This document shows, piece after piece, positions 2,517 through 57,841 of a DNA stretch of 64,000 bases (within the stretch, counting starts at the first letter, position 1; each line of letters begins with the position of its first letter). This stretch comes from Thermoflexus hugenholtzii JAD2 (GTDB lineage: Bacteria > Chloroflexota > Chloroflexia > Chloroflexales > Roseiflexaceae). Where the stretch lies: assembly GCA_945881915.1 (NCBI GenBank), contig CAMCVW010000015.1, forward strand, positions 1 to 64,000. The letters are read 5' to 3'. The position numbers and the translations under genes are program-made. The notes under the pieces are model-generated. The model was not told the origin of the DNA and ran no database searches. It saw nothing but the letters and a program-made list of their open reading frames with translations.

Positions 2517-3284
2517 CTATGCATTGAGTCCGTCGAGCATTGCTTTTGCGCCAGACGACAAAAAGCGCAATTCACTCGCACACAGCATCATCTGCATCCC
2601 TTTGTCACGCCAGCCACGCAACACTGCCGGGTCGGATGCGTGCGTACCAGTGGCGACGTTGTGGCGTTTGCCGGCGGCAACCACTTTGTCCATGGCAGCG
2701 ACAACCACAGGGTCTGTCGTACTGGGAGCACCGAGGGCGATGGCCAGGTCGTAGGGACCGACCAAGAGCACATCCACATCGGGCACGCTGGCGATGGCAT
2801 CGAGGTTGGCGATGGCCTGGGCGCGTTCGATTTGGATGATGACCAGGGTCTCTTGGTTCATCTCGCGGATCAGGGTCTGCGGTGGGACTTCGCGGTAGTC
2901 GGTTGCGCCACGGACCGAGGCTGCACCGCGATCGCCGCGGGGAGGGTACTTCATGTGGCGGATTGCTTCTTCGACCTGCGCGGCGGTGTCGATACGGGGG
3001 AACATGACGCCCTGCGCGCCGGCGTCGAGCAAGCGGGCGATATCGCCGTAGCGCAAATCGGGCACACGGACGATGGGCGTGATGCCGATTAAGCGCGTCG
3101 TACCAATCAGGTCAGCGACCATGGGCAGGTCATAGACACCGTGTTCGAGGTCGAAAAAGATGCTGTCGAAGCCGGCATCTGCGAGCAGGTGGACGTAGGC
3201 CGGCGCACGCATGTCCATGGCGAGTGTGCCGGTCACGGAAGCGCCGTTGCGCAATTTTGCTTTGAGGGTGTTAGTTGGTATCAC
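2517..3284 (-). CDS. HpcH/HpaI-family class II aldolase
   Basis: A 255-residue TIM-barrel aldolase of the HpcH/HpaI family, which splits or forms 2-keto-3-deoxy acids by retro-aldol chemistry with a divalent metal. Family marks: FDLEHG near residue 48, the metal-binding IQIE near 150 and VGPYDLA near 177. The start is GTG at 3284, which overlaps the stop of the upstream amidohydrolase (GTGA), so the two are translationally coupled. An AAAGG lies about 8 bases upstream. A longer frame continuing inside the amidohydrolase gene is a shadow. The substrate is not evident; coupling to a ring-opening amidohydrolase suggests breakdown of a cyclic amide to a keto acid. Confidence 0.85.
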   Translation of the reverse strand: MIPTNTLKAKLRNGASVTGTLAMDMRAPAYVHLLADAGFDSIFFDLEHGVYDLPMVADLIGTTRLIGITPIVRVPDLRYGDIARLLDAGAQGVMFPRIDTAAQVEEAIRHMKYPPRGDRGAASVRGATDYREVPPQTLIREMNQETLVIIQIERAQAIANLDAIASVPDVDVLLVGPYDLAIALGAPSTTDPVVVAAMDKVVAAGKRHNVATGTHASDPAVLRGWRDKGMQMMLCASELRFLSSGAKAMLDGLNA

Positions 3285-4684
3285 CAGAATGGCCTTTCGT
3301 ATGCACGGGGATTGGGCGCCACAAATGTGCCCCAGCCGGGTTCGCCGATGACTTGACCGTCGCGTGCGACCGTTTTGCCACGCACGAACGTCCGCATCAC
3401 TGCGCCGCGGGTCTGACGACCATGCCAGAGCCGGGCGGTGACGCGCGATTTGGATTGCCACTGATTGACGTCGATGCGCCCCTCGGCGGCCAAGTCGACC
3501 AGGATGAGGTCTGCATCTGCGCCGACGGCGATGACGCCCTTGCGGCCACGCAAGCCGAACATGTTGGCGGTATTGGTGCTGACCACACTGACCATGCGCT
3601 CCAGGGTGATGCGCCCATAGCCTACTGCGGTGAGCAGCAGTGGCACCAGGATTTCGATACCCGGGGCGCCTGGGGGTGCCGAGAACATGTTGGACCAGCC
3701 GGGTTCCTTTTCGGATGCCAAAAACGGCGAATGATCGGTGCCGATGATATCGACGTCGCCACGTGCAACCCGCTCCCACATCCCTTCGACGAATGATTCA
3801 TCGCGGATGGGCGGGTTCGTTTTGGCATAAGGACCATGGAGCTCGATATCGGCATCGGTGAGGAACAAATACGGCGGGCACGTCTCGCAGGTTACTTTGA
3901 CGCCGTTTGCACGGGCCTGGGTAATCAGGTCGATGGAGTAGGGTGACGAGACGTGCACGATGTGCAACCACGCCCCTGCTGCCCGTGCCAGCGCAATGGA
4001 TTGCGCCACCGACGCTTCTTCGACGACGGGTGGGCGGGCTTTGGTGTGGCTGATGGGACCGAGGTCGCCGGTGCGTTTGTAGTCCTCGGCCAAGCGACTG
4101 AGGATGTACTCGTCTTCGGCGTGGATGGCATGCGGCAGGCCAGTTTTGGCGGTCTCTTTGAGGACGGTGAAAAACGCACCGGGGTCGGGGCAACACAGCC
4201 CGATGAATTCTTTTTCACGACCCGGGGGGACCGCAGTGCGGAACGTTTTGAAGCCGATGATGCCGGCGTTGCCGAGGGCTGCGATGTGTTCGCGGTTGTC
4301 ATCGGCGGCACCACCGTAGAGGGCATAGTCGGTGTAGAGTCGGTCGCGCACGGCGTCGATCCGATCGGCGAGGGTCTGGGCACTGTGGGTCGACACCGCG
4401 GCGATGGGCATCTCGCACAGCATGGTGACGCCTGATACGGCCGCTGCCCGGGTCGCTGAGGCGAAGTCTTCGCGGTCGGAGCGGCCGGGGTCGCGCACAT
4501 GGGTGTGCGAGTCGATCGCCCCGGGCAGGAGGTGAAGCCCACCGGCGTCGATGACCTCATGTGCCTCGGCGAAGGTGCTGGCCATCCCGATGGCGACGAT
4601 AATGCCGTCTTTGATGGCGACATCGAGCTGACGGCGGCCGTCGGCGTTGACCACAGTGGCGTTTTTGATTATGACATCGAGCAT
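3281..4684 (-). CDS. Cyclic amidohydrolase (allantoinase / dihydroorotase-like)
   Basis: A 467-residue metal-dependent amidohydrolase of the allantoinase, hydantoinase and dihydroorotase group, which opens cyclic amide rings. Visible marks: GAIDSHTHVRDPG with the HxH metal pair near residues 58-60, a probable carboxylated lysine in GFKTF near 145, HAEDE, HVSS, and GTDHSPF with the late catalytic aspartate near 305. The start is ATG at 4684, with AGGA seven bases upstream; the frame stays open upstream but loses resemblance to the family. It overlaps the HpcH aldolase by 4 bp. Context suggests catabolism rather than pyrimidine synthesis. Allantoin, hydantoin and dihydroorotate are all possible substrates. 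Confidence 0.85.
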   Translation of the reverse strand: MLDVIIKNATVVNADGRRQLDVAIKDGIIVAIGMASTFAEAHEVIDAGGLHLLPGAIDSHTHVRDPGRSDREDFASATRAAAVSGVTMLCEMPIAAVSTHSAQTLADRIDAVRDRLYTDYALYGGAADDNREHIAALGNAGIIGFKTFRTAVPPGREKEFIGLCCPDPGAFFTVLKETAKTGLPHAIHAEDEYILSRLAEDYKRTGDLGPISHTKARPPVVEEASVAQSIALARAAGAWLHIVHVSSPYSIDLITQARANGVKVTCETCPPYLFLTDADIELHGPYAKTNPPIRDESFVEGMWERVARGDVDIIGTDHSPFLASEKEPGWSNMFSAPPGAPGIEILVPLLLTAVGYGRITLERMVSVVSTNTANMFGLRGRKGVIAVGADADLILVDLAAEGRIDVNQWQSKSRVTARLWHGRQTRGAVMRTFVRGKTVARDGQVIGEPGWGTFVAPNPRAYERPFW

Positions 4685-4723
4685 AGAACATCCTGTCGGA
4701 TTGACTTGTCTTGGTGTGACATC

Positions 4724-4729
4724 ATTATA
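4724..4729 (-). promoter_or_regulatory. -10 box of the amidohydrolase-aldolase operon
   Basis: TATAAT on the minus strand about 40 bases before the amidohydrolase start. No good -35 element was seen. Confidence 0.45.
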
Positions 4730-4918
4730 CGTTCGGTTGATGGAGGATGATTCGCTCGATGGAGCAGTCAACAAAATGTCGGTGAATGCGTCTCTAGGAA
4801 ACGGAAAACACTGTTCTGACCCTTGTTCCGTAAACAAAAAAGATGACCATCTAGACGATTTATCTCTAAAAGTGTAGACTATCGCCATAATTGTTACTGC
4901 ATGAAAAGGAGTACCCGT

Positions 4919-6202
4919 ATGCGATCGACGTGGTTGCGGTTCTTTGTTTGTTTTTTGTTGATAGCAGGAGTCGGAGTTCAGCGTGTTCCGTCGGTGCACG
5001 CAGCTACTGTGACAGATGTGAGTGTGGGGACAAATTTTGGCTGTGCAGTGACGGCAGGGAATGTCTATTGTTGGGGTCGGCATGACAAAGGTCAACTAGG
5101 GTCAAATCAAGCGCCCGGCGTGTCTGCAGGTGCAGTGCGTGTGGTGTTAAGTGACGACACGCCGTTGACCGGGGTATCGCAACTGGCTAGTAATGGTGAT
5201 AAGACGTGTGCCCTCAAAAGTGGTCAAGTCTGGTGTTGGGGCGGATCATATGCGTATGATGTGGCACAACGCAATGGGTCACTGAGTGGTGGTCAGTACA
5301 TCAGCGATGCGGTGTCGCTTGCGGTAGGGGGGAGCTCCAATGGTGGGCCACATGTGTGTGTGATTCGTAGTTCACAAAGTCGTTCGATTTGGTGCTGGGG
5401 AAACAATAATTCTGGTCAACTCGGCCTAAACCATACGCGACAACCCGCTGATTCGTTGGCACGCCAGGTGTTGACATCAAGCGGTACACCACTGTCGTTT
5501 GTGCCGTTAACGAACGCGCAAGGGCTCTCGGCCGGAGGGTATCATACGTGTGCGACGGTGGCAATGGCCAATCCTAAGCTGGGGAACTATGTCTATTGCT
5601 GGGGTAATAATGGGTACGGTCAGATTGGCAATGGACGCAGCGGGGTCACCGAAAAGGCGCTGACCGCCACGCAACTTAAAACATCAGCCGGTGTGGCAAT
5701 CGGCGCGATATCAAGTGTATCTGCCGGTTTCATACATACATGTGCATTGATGAAGAACACCGAAGTCATGTGTTGGGGATATGGGCGTGATTACCAACTC
5801 GGTCAAGGCGCTCAGACAAGCAGTTCGCGTGCGCTGTCAGTCAAAACAGATGCATCCACCAAGTTGACGGGAGTGACCGCCGTTGATGCGGGCGAGAAAT
5901 TTACCTGCGCCATTAAGAATACTGACATCTGGTGTTGGGGGACAAACACGTACGGACAATTCGGCGACAGTTTGTATATCCCTGCACAATATGCGGTGCG
6001 CACGGTGACGACCATTCTTGATGTGGTCGACATTGATACGACGAAGTACAACGTGTGTGCCGTGAACGGTACGATTGCAGCTAGTCGCAAAGTCTATTGC
6101 GTCGGCGATAACGACTATGGGCAGCTCGGCGATCGTTCATTTATTGATAGTACGGTGCATGTGTCAGTGAGGTTCGTCGGGAACGGCGCGACGTTCCCGT
6201 AG
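4919..6202 (+). CDS. Secreted seven-bladed RCC1-repeat propeller protein (copy A)
   Basis: A 427-residue protein with a signal peptide (MRSTWLRFFVCFLLIAG, cleavage probably after VHA near residue 28) and seven RCC1-type repeats ending in YCWG..GQLG-like motifs, so probably a complete seven-bladed propeller outside the cell. Every blade has a pair of cysteines, such as CAV...CWG, 14 in all. ATG at 4919 is preferred to ATG at 4901: AAAGGAG lies 7 bases before it, overlapping the upstream ATG, and copy B is conserved from this point. RCC1 domains bind proteins; the ligand is unknown. The gene is duplicated at 6473. Confidence 0.85.
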   Translation: MRSTWLRFFVCFLLIAGVGVQRVPSVHAATVTDVSVGTNFGCAVTAGNVYCWGRHDKGQLGSNQAPGVSAGAVRVVLSDDTPLTGVSQLASNGDKTCALKSGQVWCWGGSYAYDVAQRNGSLSGGQYISDAVSLAVGGSSNGGPHVCVIRSSQSRSIWCWGNNNSGQLGLNHTRQPADSLARQVLTSSGTPLSFVPLTNAQGLSAGGYHTCATVAMANPKLGNYVYCWGNNGYGQIGNGRSGVTEKALTATQLKTSAGVAIGAISSVSAGFIHTCALMKNTEVMCWGYGRDYQLGQGAQTSSSRALSVKTDASTKLTGVTAVDAGEKFTCAIKNTDIWCWGTNTYGQFGDSLYIPAQYAVRTVTTILDVVDIDTTKYNVCAVNGTIAASRKVYCVGDNDYGQLGDRSFIDSTVHVSVRFVGNGATFP

Positions 6203-6217
6203 GATATTCAAAACCAA

Positions 6218-6256
6218 ACCGGCGGCACGGGGTACTCCCCGTGCCGCCGGTTTTTT
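6218..6256 (+). terminator. Terminator of RCC1 copy A
   Basis: A 15-bp GC-rich stem (ACCGGCGGCACGGGG with its complement) and loop TACT, followed by a run of T, 15 bases after the stop codon. Confidence 0.92.
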
Positions 6257-6267
6257 GTATGTCTGAT

Positions 6268-6355
6268 TTATGGGAGTGCGTTCGAGGCAGCACCGTCGAC
6301 CAGGGTCGCCGTGCCGTTCATGTAGCTGGCTGCTGCTGAGGCCAAAAAGACGATG
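6268..6355 (-). pseudogene. Duplicated 3'-terminal fragment of the SDR gene
   Basis: An 88-base copy of the last codons and stop of the SDR gene at 7804-7891, with only three differences (85/88). It has no start, no promoter and no upstream part of the gene, and ends abruptly where the RCC1 copy B leader begins. It marks the junction of the tandem duplication. Confidence 0.9.
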
Positions 6356-6472
6356 CGGAAAACACTGTTCTGACCCTTGTTCCGTAAACAAAAAGGATGA
6401 CCATCTAGACGATATATGTCTATAAGTGTACACTATCGCCATAATTGTCACTGCATGAATAGGATTACCTGT

Positions 6473-7747
6473 ATGCGATCGACGTGGTTGCGGTTCTTTG
6501 TTTGTTTTTTGTTGATAGCAGGAGTCGGAGTACAGCGTGTTCCGTCAGTGCACGCAGCTACCGTGTCAGATGTGAGTGTCGGGAATCAGTTTGCCTGTGC
6601 CGTGACTGCGGGGAACGTCTACTGTTGGGGTAATCACACCCTAGGACAATTAGGGACGGACGAAGCCCCCCGTAACTATAACGGAGCGAAGCGGGTCGTT
6701 CTTGCGGACGGCAGTCCACTCACTGGTGTTTCACAACTGGCGAGTAATGGTGATAAGACGTGTGCCCTCAAGAATGGCCAAATATGGTGTTGGGGCGGGA
6801 TCACACGACATGATGTTGCCGCCAGAAAAGGGGTCGTGGGTACCCGGTATATTGATGACGCAGTTGCGTTGGCTCAAGGTGGTTCCGGTGGTGTGGGTTT
6901 TACATGTGTGATACGGAGCACACAGAATAATTCAATTTGGTGTTGGGGGTACAATACCTCGGGCCAATTAGGGCGCAACACCTCCACTAGTTATGAAAGT
7001 GTACCCCGGCAAGTGCTCACCTACATCCCATCGACACCAGGCCCGATTGCCCTCACAAAAGCACAGAGGTTGTCAGCTGGTATAAACCATATATGTGCCA
7101 CCGTTGCTATGGCGAATCCCAAACTTGGCAATACTGTGTACTGCTGGGGGAACAACGTGAGAGGCCAAATCGGGAATGGTCGGAGTGGAGCGGGGCAAAA
7201 AGAGACGACTGCAACGAATTTGAAAACGGCTGCAGGCGTTGCCATTGATGCTGTTGCTTCGGTGAGTGCAGGTGCGTATCATTCGTGTGCGGTATTGAAA
7301 AACACGCGCGTGATGTGTTGGGGCGATGGGTTAAACTATGAACTCGGACAAGGAGCACAGACATCGAGCAGCCGTGCGCTTTTTGTCAAAACAGATGCCT
7401 CAACGGTGTTGACGGGGGTTACTGCAGTGGATGTCGGTGAAAAATTCACCTGTGCCCTCAAAAACACAGACATCTGGTGTTGGGGAACGAATACCTATGG
7501 CCAATTCGGCGACGATTTGGTTCTGCCCGCCCAGTACGCCGTACGCACCGTGACGACCATACTCGATGTAGTAGACATCGACACCAGTAAGTTCAACATT
7601 TGTGCAGTCAACGGAAGCAGTGCTGCAGCGCGCAAAGTCTATTGTTCGGGGAAGAATGGTTCAGGCCAGTTAGGGAATCGGACGTGGATTGACAGTCGCA
7701 TCCATGTTGCAGTGAAGTTCCATGATTTGGACGCGACATTCCCATAA
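6473..7747 (+). CDS. Secreted seven-bladed RCC1-repeat propeller protein (copy B)
   Basis: A 424-residue paralogue of the 4919 gene, with an almost identical signal peptide and seven RCC1 blades, again with a cysteine pair in every blade. Conserved motifs include VYCWGN, IWCWGTNTYGQFG and QGAQTSSSRAL. ATG at 6473 follows AGGA at 6461-6464; upstream in-frame starts are not supported. The mature domain differs from copy A mainly in loop residues such as the first and third blades, which would change the binding surface. No enzymatic motif is present. It is probably an extracellular binding or structural protein. Confidence 0.85.
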   Translation: MRSTWLRFFVCFLLIAGVGVQRVPSVHAATVSDVSVGNQFACAVTAGNVYCWGNHTLGQLGTDEAPRNYNGAKRVVLADGSPLTGVSQLASNGDKTCALKNGQIWCWGGITRHDVAARKGVVGTRYIDDAVALAQGGSGGVGFTCVIRSTQNNSIWCWGYNTSGQLGRNTSTSYESVPRQVLTYIPSTPGPIALTKAQRLSAGINHICATVAMANPKLGNTVYCWGNNVRGQIGNGRSGAGQKETTATNLKTAAGVAIDAVASVSAGAYHSCAVLKNTRVMCWGDGLNYELGQGAQTSSSRALFVKTDASTVLTGVTAVDVGEKFTCALKNTDIWCWGTNTYGQFGDDLVLPAQYAVRTVTTILDVVDIDTSKFNICAVNGSSAAARKVYCSGKNGSGQLGNRTWIDSRIHVAVKFHDLDATFP

Positions 7748-7753
7748 TCACAC

Positions 7754-7797
7754 AAACGCGGGCGACGCAGATCATACTGCGTCGCCCGCGTTTTTTT
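7754..7797 (+). terminator. Terminator of RCC1 copy B
   Basis: A 17-bp perfect stem (AAACGCGGGCGACGCAG with its complement) and a 6-base loop, followed by T run. It lies between convergent genes but only the plus strand has the T tract. Confidence 0.93.
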
Positions 7798-7803
7798 GTG
7801 GGC

Positions 7804-8595
7804 TTATGGCAATGCGTTCGAGGCAGCTCCGTCGACCAGGGTCGCCGTGCCGTTCATGTAGCTGGCTGCTGCTGAGGCCAAAAAGACGATGAAGTTGGCG
7901 AACTCTTCGGGTTCGCCCAATCGTCCCGCCGGAATGCTCGCCAACGATGCCTTGCGAACTTCCTCGACGCTGGCGCCGGTGCGCTGGGCCATGGCATTAT
8001 CGAGCTCTTCGATGCGCTCGGTGCCGATGCGGCCGGGTCCAACCACGTGGACGTTGATGTTGTGCGGGGCCACTTCACGGGCCAGGCTCTTGGCCAGGCC
8101 ATTGATGCCGGCACGCATCACGTTTGACAGGATCAGGTTGGGGATGGGCTGGCGGATCGACGACGACGCGATGGTGAGCAAGCGACCGTATTTGGCGGCC
8201 TTCATGTGGGGAATGGATGCGCGGGCGACCCATACCAAACTCATCAGATTTTGGTTAAAGGCGGCCAGCCACTGGGCATCGTTGATGGCGTCGAAGCCGC
8301 CAGCGGGAGGACCACCGGCGTTGTGCAGGGCAATCTCGAGACCACCATAAGTTTTGACGCAAGTATCGATGACTTTTTGGACGTCGGCTTCGGTGTTGAC
8401 GTCGGCGGCGACGCCGACGACTTGCGCGCCGGTTTCGGCGCGGATTTTGGCGGCGGCTTCGTCGATGCGACCCTGGTCGCGGCTGGCAATGACCAACTGG
8501 ACGCCTTCACGGGCGAGCCCGAGGGCGCTGGCATATCCGAGGCCGCGGCTCGCAGCAAAAACGACCGCACGTTTGTCCTTCAGTCCGAGGTTCAT
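7804..8595 (-). CDS. Atypical short-chain dehydrogenase/reductase (no YxxxK pair)
   Basis: A 263-residue SDR-family protein. The N-terminal nucleotide-binding motif (AASRGLG near residues 14-20), HNAGG near 90 and the catalytic-region serines SSS near 144 are present. However, the stretch that normally holds the catalytic Tyr and Lys reads LSNVMRAGINGLAK, putting Ser and Arg where YxxxK should be. A subgroup of SDRs has this change, so it is probably a real variant rather than damage. ATG at 8595 has AAAGGAG upstream, inside the end of the preceding gene (1-base gap). It is last in an AroM / DapA-like / SDR operon. Its substrate is unknown. Confidence 0.85.
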   Translation of the reverse strand: MNLGLKDKRAVVFAASRGLGYASALGLAREGVQLVIASRDQGRIDEAAAKIRAETGAQVVGVAADVNTEADVQKVIDTCVKTYGGLEIALHNAGGPPAGGFDAINDAQWLAAFNQNLMSLVWVARASIPHMKAAKYGRLLTIASSSIRQPIPNLILSNVMRAGINGLAKSLAREVAPHNINVHVVGPGRIGTERIEELDNAMAQRTGASVEEVRKASLASIPAGRLGEPEEFANFIVFLASAAASYMNGTATLVDGAASNALP

Positions 8596-49955: not shown

Positions 49956-49962
49956 TCGGAGG

Positions 49963-49994
49963 AATTATGAATTATGAATTATGAATTATGAATT
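49963..49994. repeat. Heptanucleotide tandem repeat AATTATG
   Basis: Four perfect AATTATG units plus AATT, directly upstream of the guaB promoter. The same heptamer forms a longer array at 55154. Confidence 0.95.
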
Positions 49995-54719: not shown

Positions 54720-55154
54720 ATGAGTCCCAAAAAAACAGACGGATTCTCGGCCGCCGAAAAGGCTGCAATGGCAGAGCGGGCCCGTGAACTCAAAGCACAG
54801 GCCAAGAGCACGCAAGTGCGTGCCGATGGTGAAAAAGATTTGCTCGCCAAAGTCGCCGAAATGACCGTGGATGAACAGGGTATCGCCACACGTCTGCACG
54901 AGCTCGTCAGCACACACGCTCCCATCCTCACTCCCAAAACATGGTACGGCATGCCTGCATGGGTACGCGACGGCAAGGTTGTCTGCTTCTTCCAATCTGC
55001 GAGTAAATTCGGCTCGCGCTTGAATACATTTGGCTTCCAAGATGCAGCCACGCTCGATGACGGGCCCATGTGGCCGACGGCGTATGCCCTGCTTGCGATG
55101 ACTCCCGATATCGAGGATCGCATTATTGCGTTGTTGAAAAAAGCCACCAAGTAG
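54720..55154 (+). CDS. DUF1801-like protein
   Basis: A 144-residue soluble protein. After a charged N-terminal helix (SAAEKAAMAERARELKAQAK) comes a domain resembling DUF1801/YdhG proteins: PKTWYGMPAWVRDGKVVCFFQSASKFGSRLNTFGF (about residues 77-111). These small proteins have been linked to iron handling in some bacteria, but their role is unclear. AAGGAG precedes ATG at 54720; the upstream open frame lacks a start signal. It is divergent from the DUF5107 gene. Another DUF1801-type gene lies at 58056. Confidence 0.75.
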   Translation: MSPKKTDGFSAAEKAAMAERARELKAQAKSTQVRADGEKDLLAKVAEMTVDEQGIATRLHELVSTHAPILTPKTWYGMPAWVRDGKVVCFFQSASKFGSRLNTFGFQDAATLDDGPMWPTAYALLAMTPDIEDRIIALLKKATK

Positions 55155-55241
55155 AATTATGAATTATGAACTGAATTATGAATTATGAACTGAATTATGA
55201 ATTATGAATTTTGAATTTATGAATTTATGAATTTATGAATT
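55154..55241. repeat. Heptanucleotide tandem array GAATTAT and variants
   Basis: About twelve GAATTAT-type units (GAATTAT, GAACT, GAATTTAT variants), starting inside the DUF1801 stop codon. It shares its unit with the array at 49963. Confidence 0.92.
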
Positions 55242-55661
55242 AGGTTGCGTCTTGTCAAGTGGTGTAAATTCGTGGGTTCGCTGAAGCGGCAGTAATTATC
55301 GGCGGTAAGTGGAATCGCGGGCTTCATCCATAAACTTTTTGGTGAAGTAACCGCGCTTCAGACTCCAATCTCTGTCTAGTTCTACGACCTCGATGGTTGT
55401 TTCTTGACAAGCGGTAAATATTGAAGGGTTGGCGCACCCTATTCCCCTCGTTACCTGTACGAGGCGGCTGTTCTTTGATTTTTCATGAAGCACCGTCGTT
55501 ACACCCGCATTCCATCATCGAGATTGGTTACCACAGAGCACCACGTTCGCAAGAAGGATGTAGACTTTTGGCATCTGGTTATAGCAAAGAGATTGTGCAA
55601 CTGCATAATAGACGACAATCGTACGAGATGAATAGAAGACCAAAAATATTGTGACATAAAC

Positions 55662-56770: not shown

Positions 56771-57841
56771 ATGAACTTACGTTTCAAAACCCTGGCAGTG
56801 TTGCTTGTGATGTCCTTTGTCGTCGTTGCTTGTGCAGGTGCAGCAGTACCTGTCGCTGAGCCAACGCAAGCTCCGGCCGCGACCGAAGCGCCCGCTGCAA
56901 TCGAAGCGCCCGCCGCCACCAAAGCGCCCGCGTGTACATCCGATGAACAGGATATCATGTGTGCACTTGAATCAGATCCTCAGTTCTCTACAGTAGTGGC
57001 TATTTTGAATACACTCCAATTAGCAGGTGGAATAAAAAATGGTAAATTGGGAACTATCACCTTTTTAGTGCCTACAAACGATGCTTTCGAAGCATATTTT
57101 GCCGGAGCTGGCACGAGTTTGGAAGAACTGAGCAAGCCAGAAAACTACAGCGTCCTTCTTAAATCCGTCCAATTAGGCATATTCCCAGGCAAACAAATGG
57201 AAGCTGATTTGGCAAAATCAGGAAACTGGACAGTCGCTGGCACTGCAATCCAAGTTGCTGTCATCGATGGCAAGCTTGTGATAGATCGCGACATAAATGT
57301 GCTCCTGGCCGACACAGAACTTCTTGACGGAAACGTGATTCACGTAATCGATGGGGTGATTATTGGTAAAGCTCCCGCCGCCACCGAAGCTACCGCTTGT
57401 GAATCCGATGATCAGGATATCATGTGTGCACTTGAATCAGATCCTCAGTTATCTACAGTAGTGGCTATTTTGAATACACTCGAATTAGCAGGTGGAATAA
57501 AAAATGGTGAATTGGGAACTATCACCTTTTTAGTGCCTACAAACGATGCTTTCGAAGCATATTTTGCCGAAGCTGGCACGAGTTTGGAAGAACTGAGCAA
57601 GCCAGAAAACCACAGCGTCCTTCTTAAATCCATCCAATTCGGCTTATACCCAGGCAAACAAATGGAAGCTGATTTGGCAAAATCAGGAAACTGGACAATC
57701 GCTGGCACTAAAATCCAAGTTGCTGTCATCGATGGCAAGCTTGTGATAGATCGTGACATAAATGTGCTCCTGGCCGACATAGAACTTCTTGACGGAAACG
57801 TGATTCACGTAATCGATGGGGTGATTATTGGTAAAGAATGA
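56771..57841 (+). CDS. Lipoprotein with two fasciclin domains
   Basis: A 356-residue surface lipoprotein: hydrophobic leader, lipobox VVAC with the lipidated Cys at residue 21, an alanine/proline/threonine-rich linker (APAATEAPAAIEAPAATKAPA), then two fasciclin (FAS1) domains at about residues 58-200 and 213-356. Each has the H1 motif TITFLVPTNDAFEAYF and ends with VIHVIDGVII. FAS1 domains mediate adhesion. The two domains arose by a recent in-frame 465-bp duplication. GGAG precedes ATG at 56771. Each domain begins with a close cysteine pair. Confidence 0.92.
   Translation: MNLRFKTLAVLLVMSFVVVACAGAAVPVAEPTQAPAATEAPAAIEAPAATKAPACTSDEQDIMCALESDPQFSTVVAILNTLQLAGGIKNGKLGTITFLVPTNDAFEAYFAGAGTSLEELSKPENYSVLLKSVQLGIFPGKQMEADLAKSGNWTVAGTAIQVAVIDGKLVIDRDINVLLADTELLDGNVIHVIDGVIIGKAPAATEATACESDDQDIMCALESDPQLSTVVAILNTLELAGGIKNGELGTITFLVPTNDAFEAYFAEAGTSLEELSKPENHSVLLKSIQFGLYPGKQMEADLAKSGNWTIAGTKIQVAVIDGKLVIDRDINVLLADIELLDGNVIHVIDGVIIGKE
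56942..57841 (+). repeat. 465-bp intragenic tandem duplication (FAS1 domains)
   Basis: 56942-57406 and 57407-57841 align with an exact offset of 465 bases (155 codons) and only scattered differences, including the linker between domains. Confidence 0.95.

Follow-up and report, generated by a model that had tools for sequence, protein, structure and literature searches.

Tandem of two divergent RCC1-type propeller genes between near-identical flanks, probably assembled by interspecies recombination

How can two adjacent gene units keep nearly identical ends while the genes between these ends are strongly diverged? The question is raised by a head-to-tail tandem of two RCC1 propeller genes, P1 and P2, found in the 64,000-nucleotide stretch of DNA analysed here (the window), which belongs to a genome designated G000 and was compared with ten congeners, G001 to G010. 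Attention had first been drawn to positions 4919-7747, which correspond to both genes, but the duplicated unit is larger and spans 4802-7891 (Table 1). Each unit contains a 99-nt leader, an RCC1 gene on the plus strand with a strong hairpin terminator behind it, and the end of an SDR gene, and the pair is flanked by the minus-strand SDR gene and by a minus-strand amidohydrolase gene reaching to about 4686-4693. At the 6355|6356 junction, direct reading of 7885-7900 and 4790-4812 gives zero bases common to both parents. The signal peptide of P1 was placed by eye at about codons 1-35, T1 appeared terminator-like on the opposite strand too when scanned, and the leader yielded neither a stable fold nor an Rfam match as a candidate RNA element.

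Table 1. Positions of the two units and of neighbouring features in the window.
Feature	Position	Strand	Remarks
Amidohydrolase (dihydroorotase-like) gene, 5' part	3942..4693	-	PF01979
Unit 1	4802-6355		head-to-tail with unit 2
Leader 1, non-coding	4802..4900	+	6/99 differences vs leader 2
RCC1 propeller gene 1 (P1)	4901..6202	+	433 aa; PF00415/PF13540/PF25390; alternative ATG 4919
Terminator T1	6216..6253	+	near-perfect hairpin; -38.2 kcal/mol, z -8.9
f1, 88-bp 3' remnant of SDR gene	6268..6355	-	85/88 identical to 7804-7891
Unit 1/unit 2 junction	6355..6356	.	SDR ...GACGATG then CGGAAAACAC... leader
Unit 2	6356-7891		directly after unit 1
Leader 2	6356..6454	+	counterpart of leader 1
RCC1 propeller gene 2 (P2)	6455..7747	+	430 aa; RCC1 profiles; alternative ATG 6473
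Terminator T2	7754..7793	+	-37.7 kcal/mol, z -10.7; sequence unrelated to T1
f2, SDR end	7804-7891		counterpart of f1 in unit 2
Intact SDR gene, right flank, resident-like	7804..8595	-	PF13561/PF00106

Other repeats occur elsewhere in the window: a 19-mer, TTTGACCTCGCCCGCTTCA, is present in 6.2 perfect copies at the window start (1-117), heptamer GAATTAT arrays lie at 49962-49994 and 55154-55242, and a gene for a fasciclin-domain protein (56771-57838, plus strand) carries a 465-bp in-frame tandem duplication at 56904-57836, with 2 copies that are 95% identical.

On comparison of the two units, the contrast described in the original prediction was recovered in all its parts. The SDR fragments f1 and f2 do differ at only 3 of 88 positions, the leaders and signal-peptide codons are near-identical as claimed (about 94% identity), and the propellers are diverged also at synonymous sites. 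Indeed, 3 synonymous differences over 28.5 sites were counted in leader codons 1-38 and 214.9 over 277.5 sites, a saturated value, in the propeller codons from 46 on (Fisher p = 9e-13). The proposed sliding-window check shows that the synonymous distance is not uniform along the unit, with a pS of 0.05 in the leader and of 0.5-1.0 in the propeller, and it places the left edge of the divergent block at about codons 36-46 (about 5010-5036). T1 and T2 are of similar strength but completely different in sequence, a difference absent from the original prediction; since the terminators differ too, the divergent block starts at the mature N-terminus and ends just short of the SDR stop codon. P1 and P2 share 72-73% of their amino acids, with a dN of 0.25 and a dS of about 2.1, a rough figure since it is close to saturation. 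A single recent duplication followed by drift, which had been held insufficient from the outset, is excluded by the synonymous contrast between leader and propeller and by the unrelated terminators. Within the otherwise diverged propellers, 29 nucleotides are identical between 5189-5217 and 6743-6771 (p = 0.0006 by codon permutation and 0.01 by a run test), a stretch at which G003 differs, and which could possibly be a short conversion tract between the copies.

Both proteins match PF13540 and PF00415 far above the curated cut-offs and display seven blades, with seven CWG/CVG motifs and one Cys pair per blade; the 14 Cys of the mature part are invariant across all four relatives. The structure model (pLDDT 71, pTM 0.78) is a seven-bladed propeller with UVR8 as its best Foldseek match (E 4e-20), BLIP-II and RCC1 being matched as well, while a first model built on a 4-row alignment (pLDDT 53) was excluded from fold matching. 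As read by eye, the N-terminus has a basic start, a hydrophobic stretch and a VHA-A site. Differences between P1 and P2 favour the regions outside strands (p = 0.006) and peak in density immediately behind the CWG motif, where 15 of the 21 residues at +3, +5 and +6 differ, and the dN of 0.25 against a dS of about 2.1 indicates purifying selection overall. P1 and P2 are probably exported propellers that would bind a ligand through their differing loops.

A source for the divergent cassette was sought in the genome, which comprises 3.09 Mb on 63 contigs and is 98.6% complete. The original prediction called for a search for further RCC1 paralogues with the same leader; no third copy of either leader or propeller was found in the 3.09 Mb, where the next RCC1 stretches have 37-40% identity and sit in very long ORFs. 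Such RCC1-repeat-rich ORFs (about 970-1670 aa) were observed on contigs C1, C2, C3, C29 and C43 of G000, and many occur in congeners too. Among 158 genomes of the class, close relatives occur only in G000, G003 and G008, which belong to a single genus. In these 158 genomes and 400 drawn from the phylum, P2 has no closer relative than P1 and the genes of G008 and G003; as to a donor of P2, nothing above 40% was found outside the genus in the class and phylum samples, the phylum sample adding only a 40% match. A phage or plasmid origin was rejected, only distant RCC1 proteins (25-33% identity) being found; the viral contigs searched lack the junction and leader sequences, and no close propeller relative was found on a mobile element. 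Of the proposal that the cassette was replaced by recombination with a paralogue, the exchange of a propeller cassette by recombination therefore stands but the donor does not, none in the same genome being closer than 37-40% at the amino acid level. The comparisons instead support divergent alleles at the same site in sister species, G003 and G008, as the likely propeller sources.

In eight of the ten congeners (G001, G002, G004, G005, G006, G007, G009 and G010) the amidohydrolase and SDR genes are direct neighbours and lack an RCC1 gene in between. G003 has a single RCC1 gene at the site; its propeller is of P1 type and its terminator stem of T1 type, but leader and signal peptide are of another kind; homology to G000 upstream of this gene was not above that of shuffled sequences. 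The orthologues of P1 are 98% identical to it at the amino acid level in G008 and 83-84% in G003. The propeller of G003 shows a dS of 0.60 to P1 and its flanking genes 1.22-1.43; it is itself a mosaic, since among codons for the same amino acid the identical share rises from 64% upstream of codon 297 to 88% downstream of it (p = 0.002). For G008 the dS is 0.01 at P1, compared with 0.27 for the amidohydrolase, 0.48 for SDR, 0.86 for DapA and 0.80 for Acs. All named genomes are probably MAGs. The assembly of G008 has a gap between the T1 and T2 hairpins: contigs C238 and C408 end inside the one and inside the other, and the second arm of T2, half of the hairpin, is present beside the SDR gene. 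Given these breaks inside both hairpins, G008 probably has a second, unassembled unit. This half of T2 beside the SDR gene means that the tandem may predate the transfer; it may already be present in the G008 clade, from which just the left part would have moved. It is suggested, as a separate observation, that the near-perfect terminator hairpins stop assembly in G008 and hide the gene between.

In order to delimit the transferred part, fixed differences from the clade of G008, G001, G004 and G006, whose members are mostly 94-98% alike in the compared segments, were counted along G000, which is 84-94% like this clade in most segments. Only 8 of 702 positions (1.1%) are fixed differences within 3942-4693, against 7.8% over 2836-3941, where 3284-3941 accounts for 50 of 630; a permutation test supports the breakpoint at 3942 (p<0.001). 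Unit 1 as a whole has about 99% identity to G008 (98.7% over 4802-5030). Fixed differences number 0/82 in f1 and 2/82 in f2, a contrast that is not significant alone over 88 bp, while the 10 of 182 found to the right at 7804-7999 do differ from the tract (p = 0.001). Further right, most segments have about 9-15% fixed differences, with a low value at 8000-8190 (3/173), and the lowest 400-bp value over 16-36 kb is 3.1%; the intact SDR gene has a dS of 0.45-0.48 to the sister clade. With 13/355 fixed differences, the 3' part of the SDR gene (7804-8190) is closer to the sister clade than the rest of the operon, which hints at a further small recombination tract. At the level of sequence comparison, these data show an interspecies transfer of unit 1. 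Because f1 and the 5' part of the amidohydrolase gene are of the G008-clade type and the f2 side is of the resident type, they point to a single imported tract that stops at the junction: the G008 clade is the apparent source of about 3942-6355, and unit 2 looks resident.

The origin that we consider probable is an interspecies homologous recombination which swapped a cassette of propeller and terminator, followed by an illegitimate join which set two divergent alleles adjacent to each other. The gap between the SDR and amidohydrolase genes would be an accessory slot that holds a small gene for a secreted seven-bladed RCC1 propeller in some species of this genus of freshwater Chloroflexota (Roseiflexaceae). 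The exchanged part would begin at the mature N-terminus and include the terminator, P1 and P2 each having its own, while the surrounding leader, signal peptide and SDR sequence would keep the local type. A relative of the G008 clade would have supplied a stretch of about 3942-6355, which carries the 5' part of the amidohydrolase gene, the leader, P1 with T1 and the final 88 bp of SDR. This stretch would have been integrated through homologous recombination at its left end and through a homology-free join at its right end, so as to stand now directly before the resident leader-P2-T2-SDR. The flanks would then be alike as orthologous flanks of sister species, and the propellers different as distantly related alleles. 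It is the order of events and the mechanism of the join that we infer here. Gene conversion of the flanks, offered earlier as another explanation, becomes superfluous since the leader and SDR divergence between units, 3-7%, is that usual for orthologous flanks of sister species.

The same mosaic would also be obtained if the duplication came first, that is, if leader-P2-T2-SDR(88 bp) was doubled in the lineage and the upstream P2-T2 later gave way to the P1-T1 of a sister species, with leader and SDR remnant as the sites of homologous recombination. That f1 and f2 are 97% alike is accounted for in this way, and the older tandem may be common to both lineages, T2 standing beside the SDR gene in G008; the G008-clade type of f1 and of the adjacent amidohydrolase 5' part, with a resident type on the f2 side, argues against it, and we give this order of events a modest chance at best. 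A chimera of metagenome assembly or binning, in which the alleles of two strains were joined in one contig and the tandem exists in no cell, deserves mention since G000 and its relatives look like MAGs and the units resemble alleles of two species. However, an overlap-based assembly needs real reads across a junction without common bases, and the separate assembly of G008 shows T1 after P1 and T2 before SDR, implying two units, which makes such an artefact quite improbable.

Two further readings explain the contrast by what happened to the copies themselves. Conversion between tandem copies is plausible, and the 29-nt identity suggests one short tract, but an old duplication whose flanks were kept alike by conversion while the propellers drifted is contradicted by the relationships, P1 being nearer to G003 than to P2 in dS; moreover, the terminators are unrelated rather than drifted, and the single P1-type gene of G003 has another leader. 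We judge it very improbable. Diversification of one propeller by targeted hypermutation, retroelement-like, or by strong positive selection and fast evolution would agree with the enrichment of differences in loops, above all behind the CWG motif. It is refuted by synonymous sites that are equally dense in differences, and goes against the purifying selection, the differing terminators and the lack of any reverse transcriptase or template repeat among the neighbouring genes that were checked, so that it can practically be dismissed.

If the preferred recombination between species holds, alleles of two species can yield a tandem of very different secreted binding proteins at once and not by slow divergence after duplication, and near-identical flanks of diverged genes need not be read as a sign of gene conversion. 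A broader proposal is that the leader/signal peptide and the SDR end serve as standing homology arms of a dedicated slot with which species of the genus keep exchanging secreted binding propellers among themselves under selection for diversity (e.g. phage or grazer recognition), two-allele tandems being a recurring intermediate; we regard it as speculative and rather doubtful. Were the slot indeed used repeatedly, lake bacteria would have in it a natural library of exchanged extracellular propellers.

The idea of a dedicated system for swapping the binding domain found no support: the genes checked around the locus, in the part of the window scanned for protein families, include neither a recombinase nor a reverse transcriptase, no template repeat or silent cassette array was seen there, and the neighbouring genes are metabolic or core. 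These absences, the core-chromosome surroundings and the fit to ordinary homologous plus illegitimate recombination leave such a system unsupported. The locus resembles antigenic variation from silent cassettes and diversity-generating retroelements (DGR) in that a binding-type domain is replaced while the flanks are constant, but it differs by having no silent copies, dedicated enzyme or template repeat, and by an exchange that would take place between genomes. In-genome donors with common flanks, as in silent-cassette systems, were not found, and the changes affect all sites including the terminator and are not adenine-specific, unlike those of a retroelement.

With the RCC1/BLIP-II group (PF00415/PF13540; review PMC9218822) the proteins share seven RCC1-type blades and a model that matches the UVR8, RCC1 and BLIP-II folds; like BLIP-II they are predicted, from a signal peptide read by eye, to be secreted. 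They depart from the group by a Cys pair in every blade and by only about 20% identity to solved structures. The likeness of the model to BLIP-II concerns the fold alone, and nothing points to a partner such as a beta-lactamase or a GTPase.

A literature search for the combined pattern gave no match, and its components have known parallels. Touzain et al. (2010, PMC2884548) describe variable segments with conserved flanks in bacterial genomes, and transformable bacteria provide known cases of homology-facilitated illegitimate recombination (de Vries and Wackernagel 2002, as cited in PMC2884548). As in these cases, a short divergent block lies in homologous flanks, and one boundary is homologous (about 3942 on the left) and the other without shared bases (6355|6356 on the right), a combination which is the signature of homology-facilitated illegitimate recombination. 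Unlike them, the present locus holds a tandem of two divergent whole alleles, from species about 85-90% alike, that such a mechanism would have joined.
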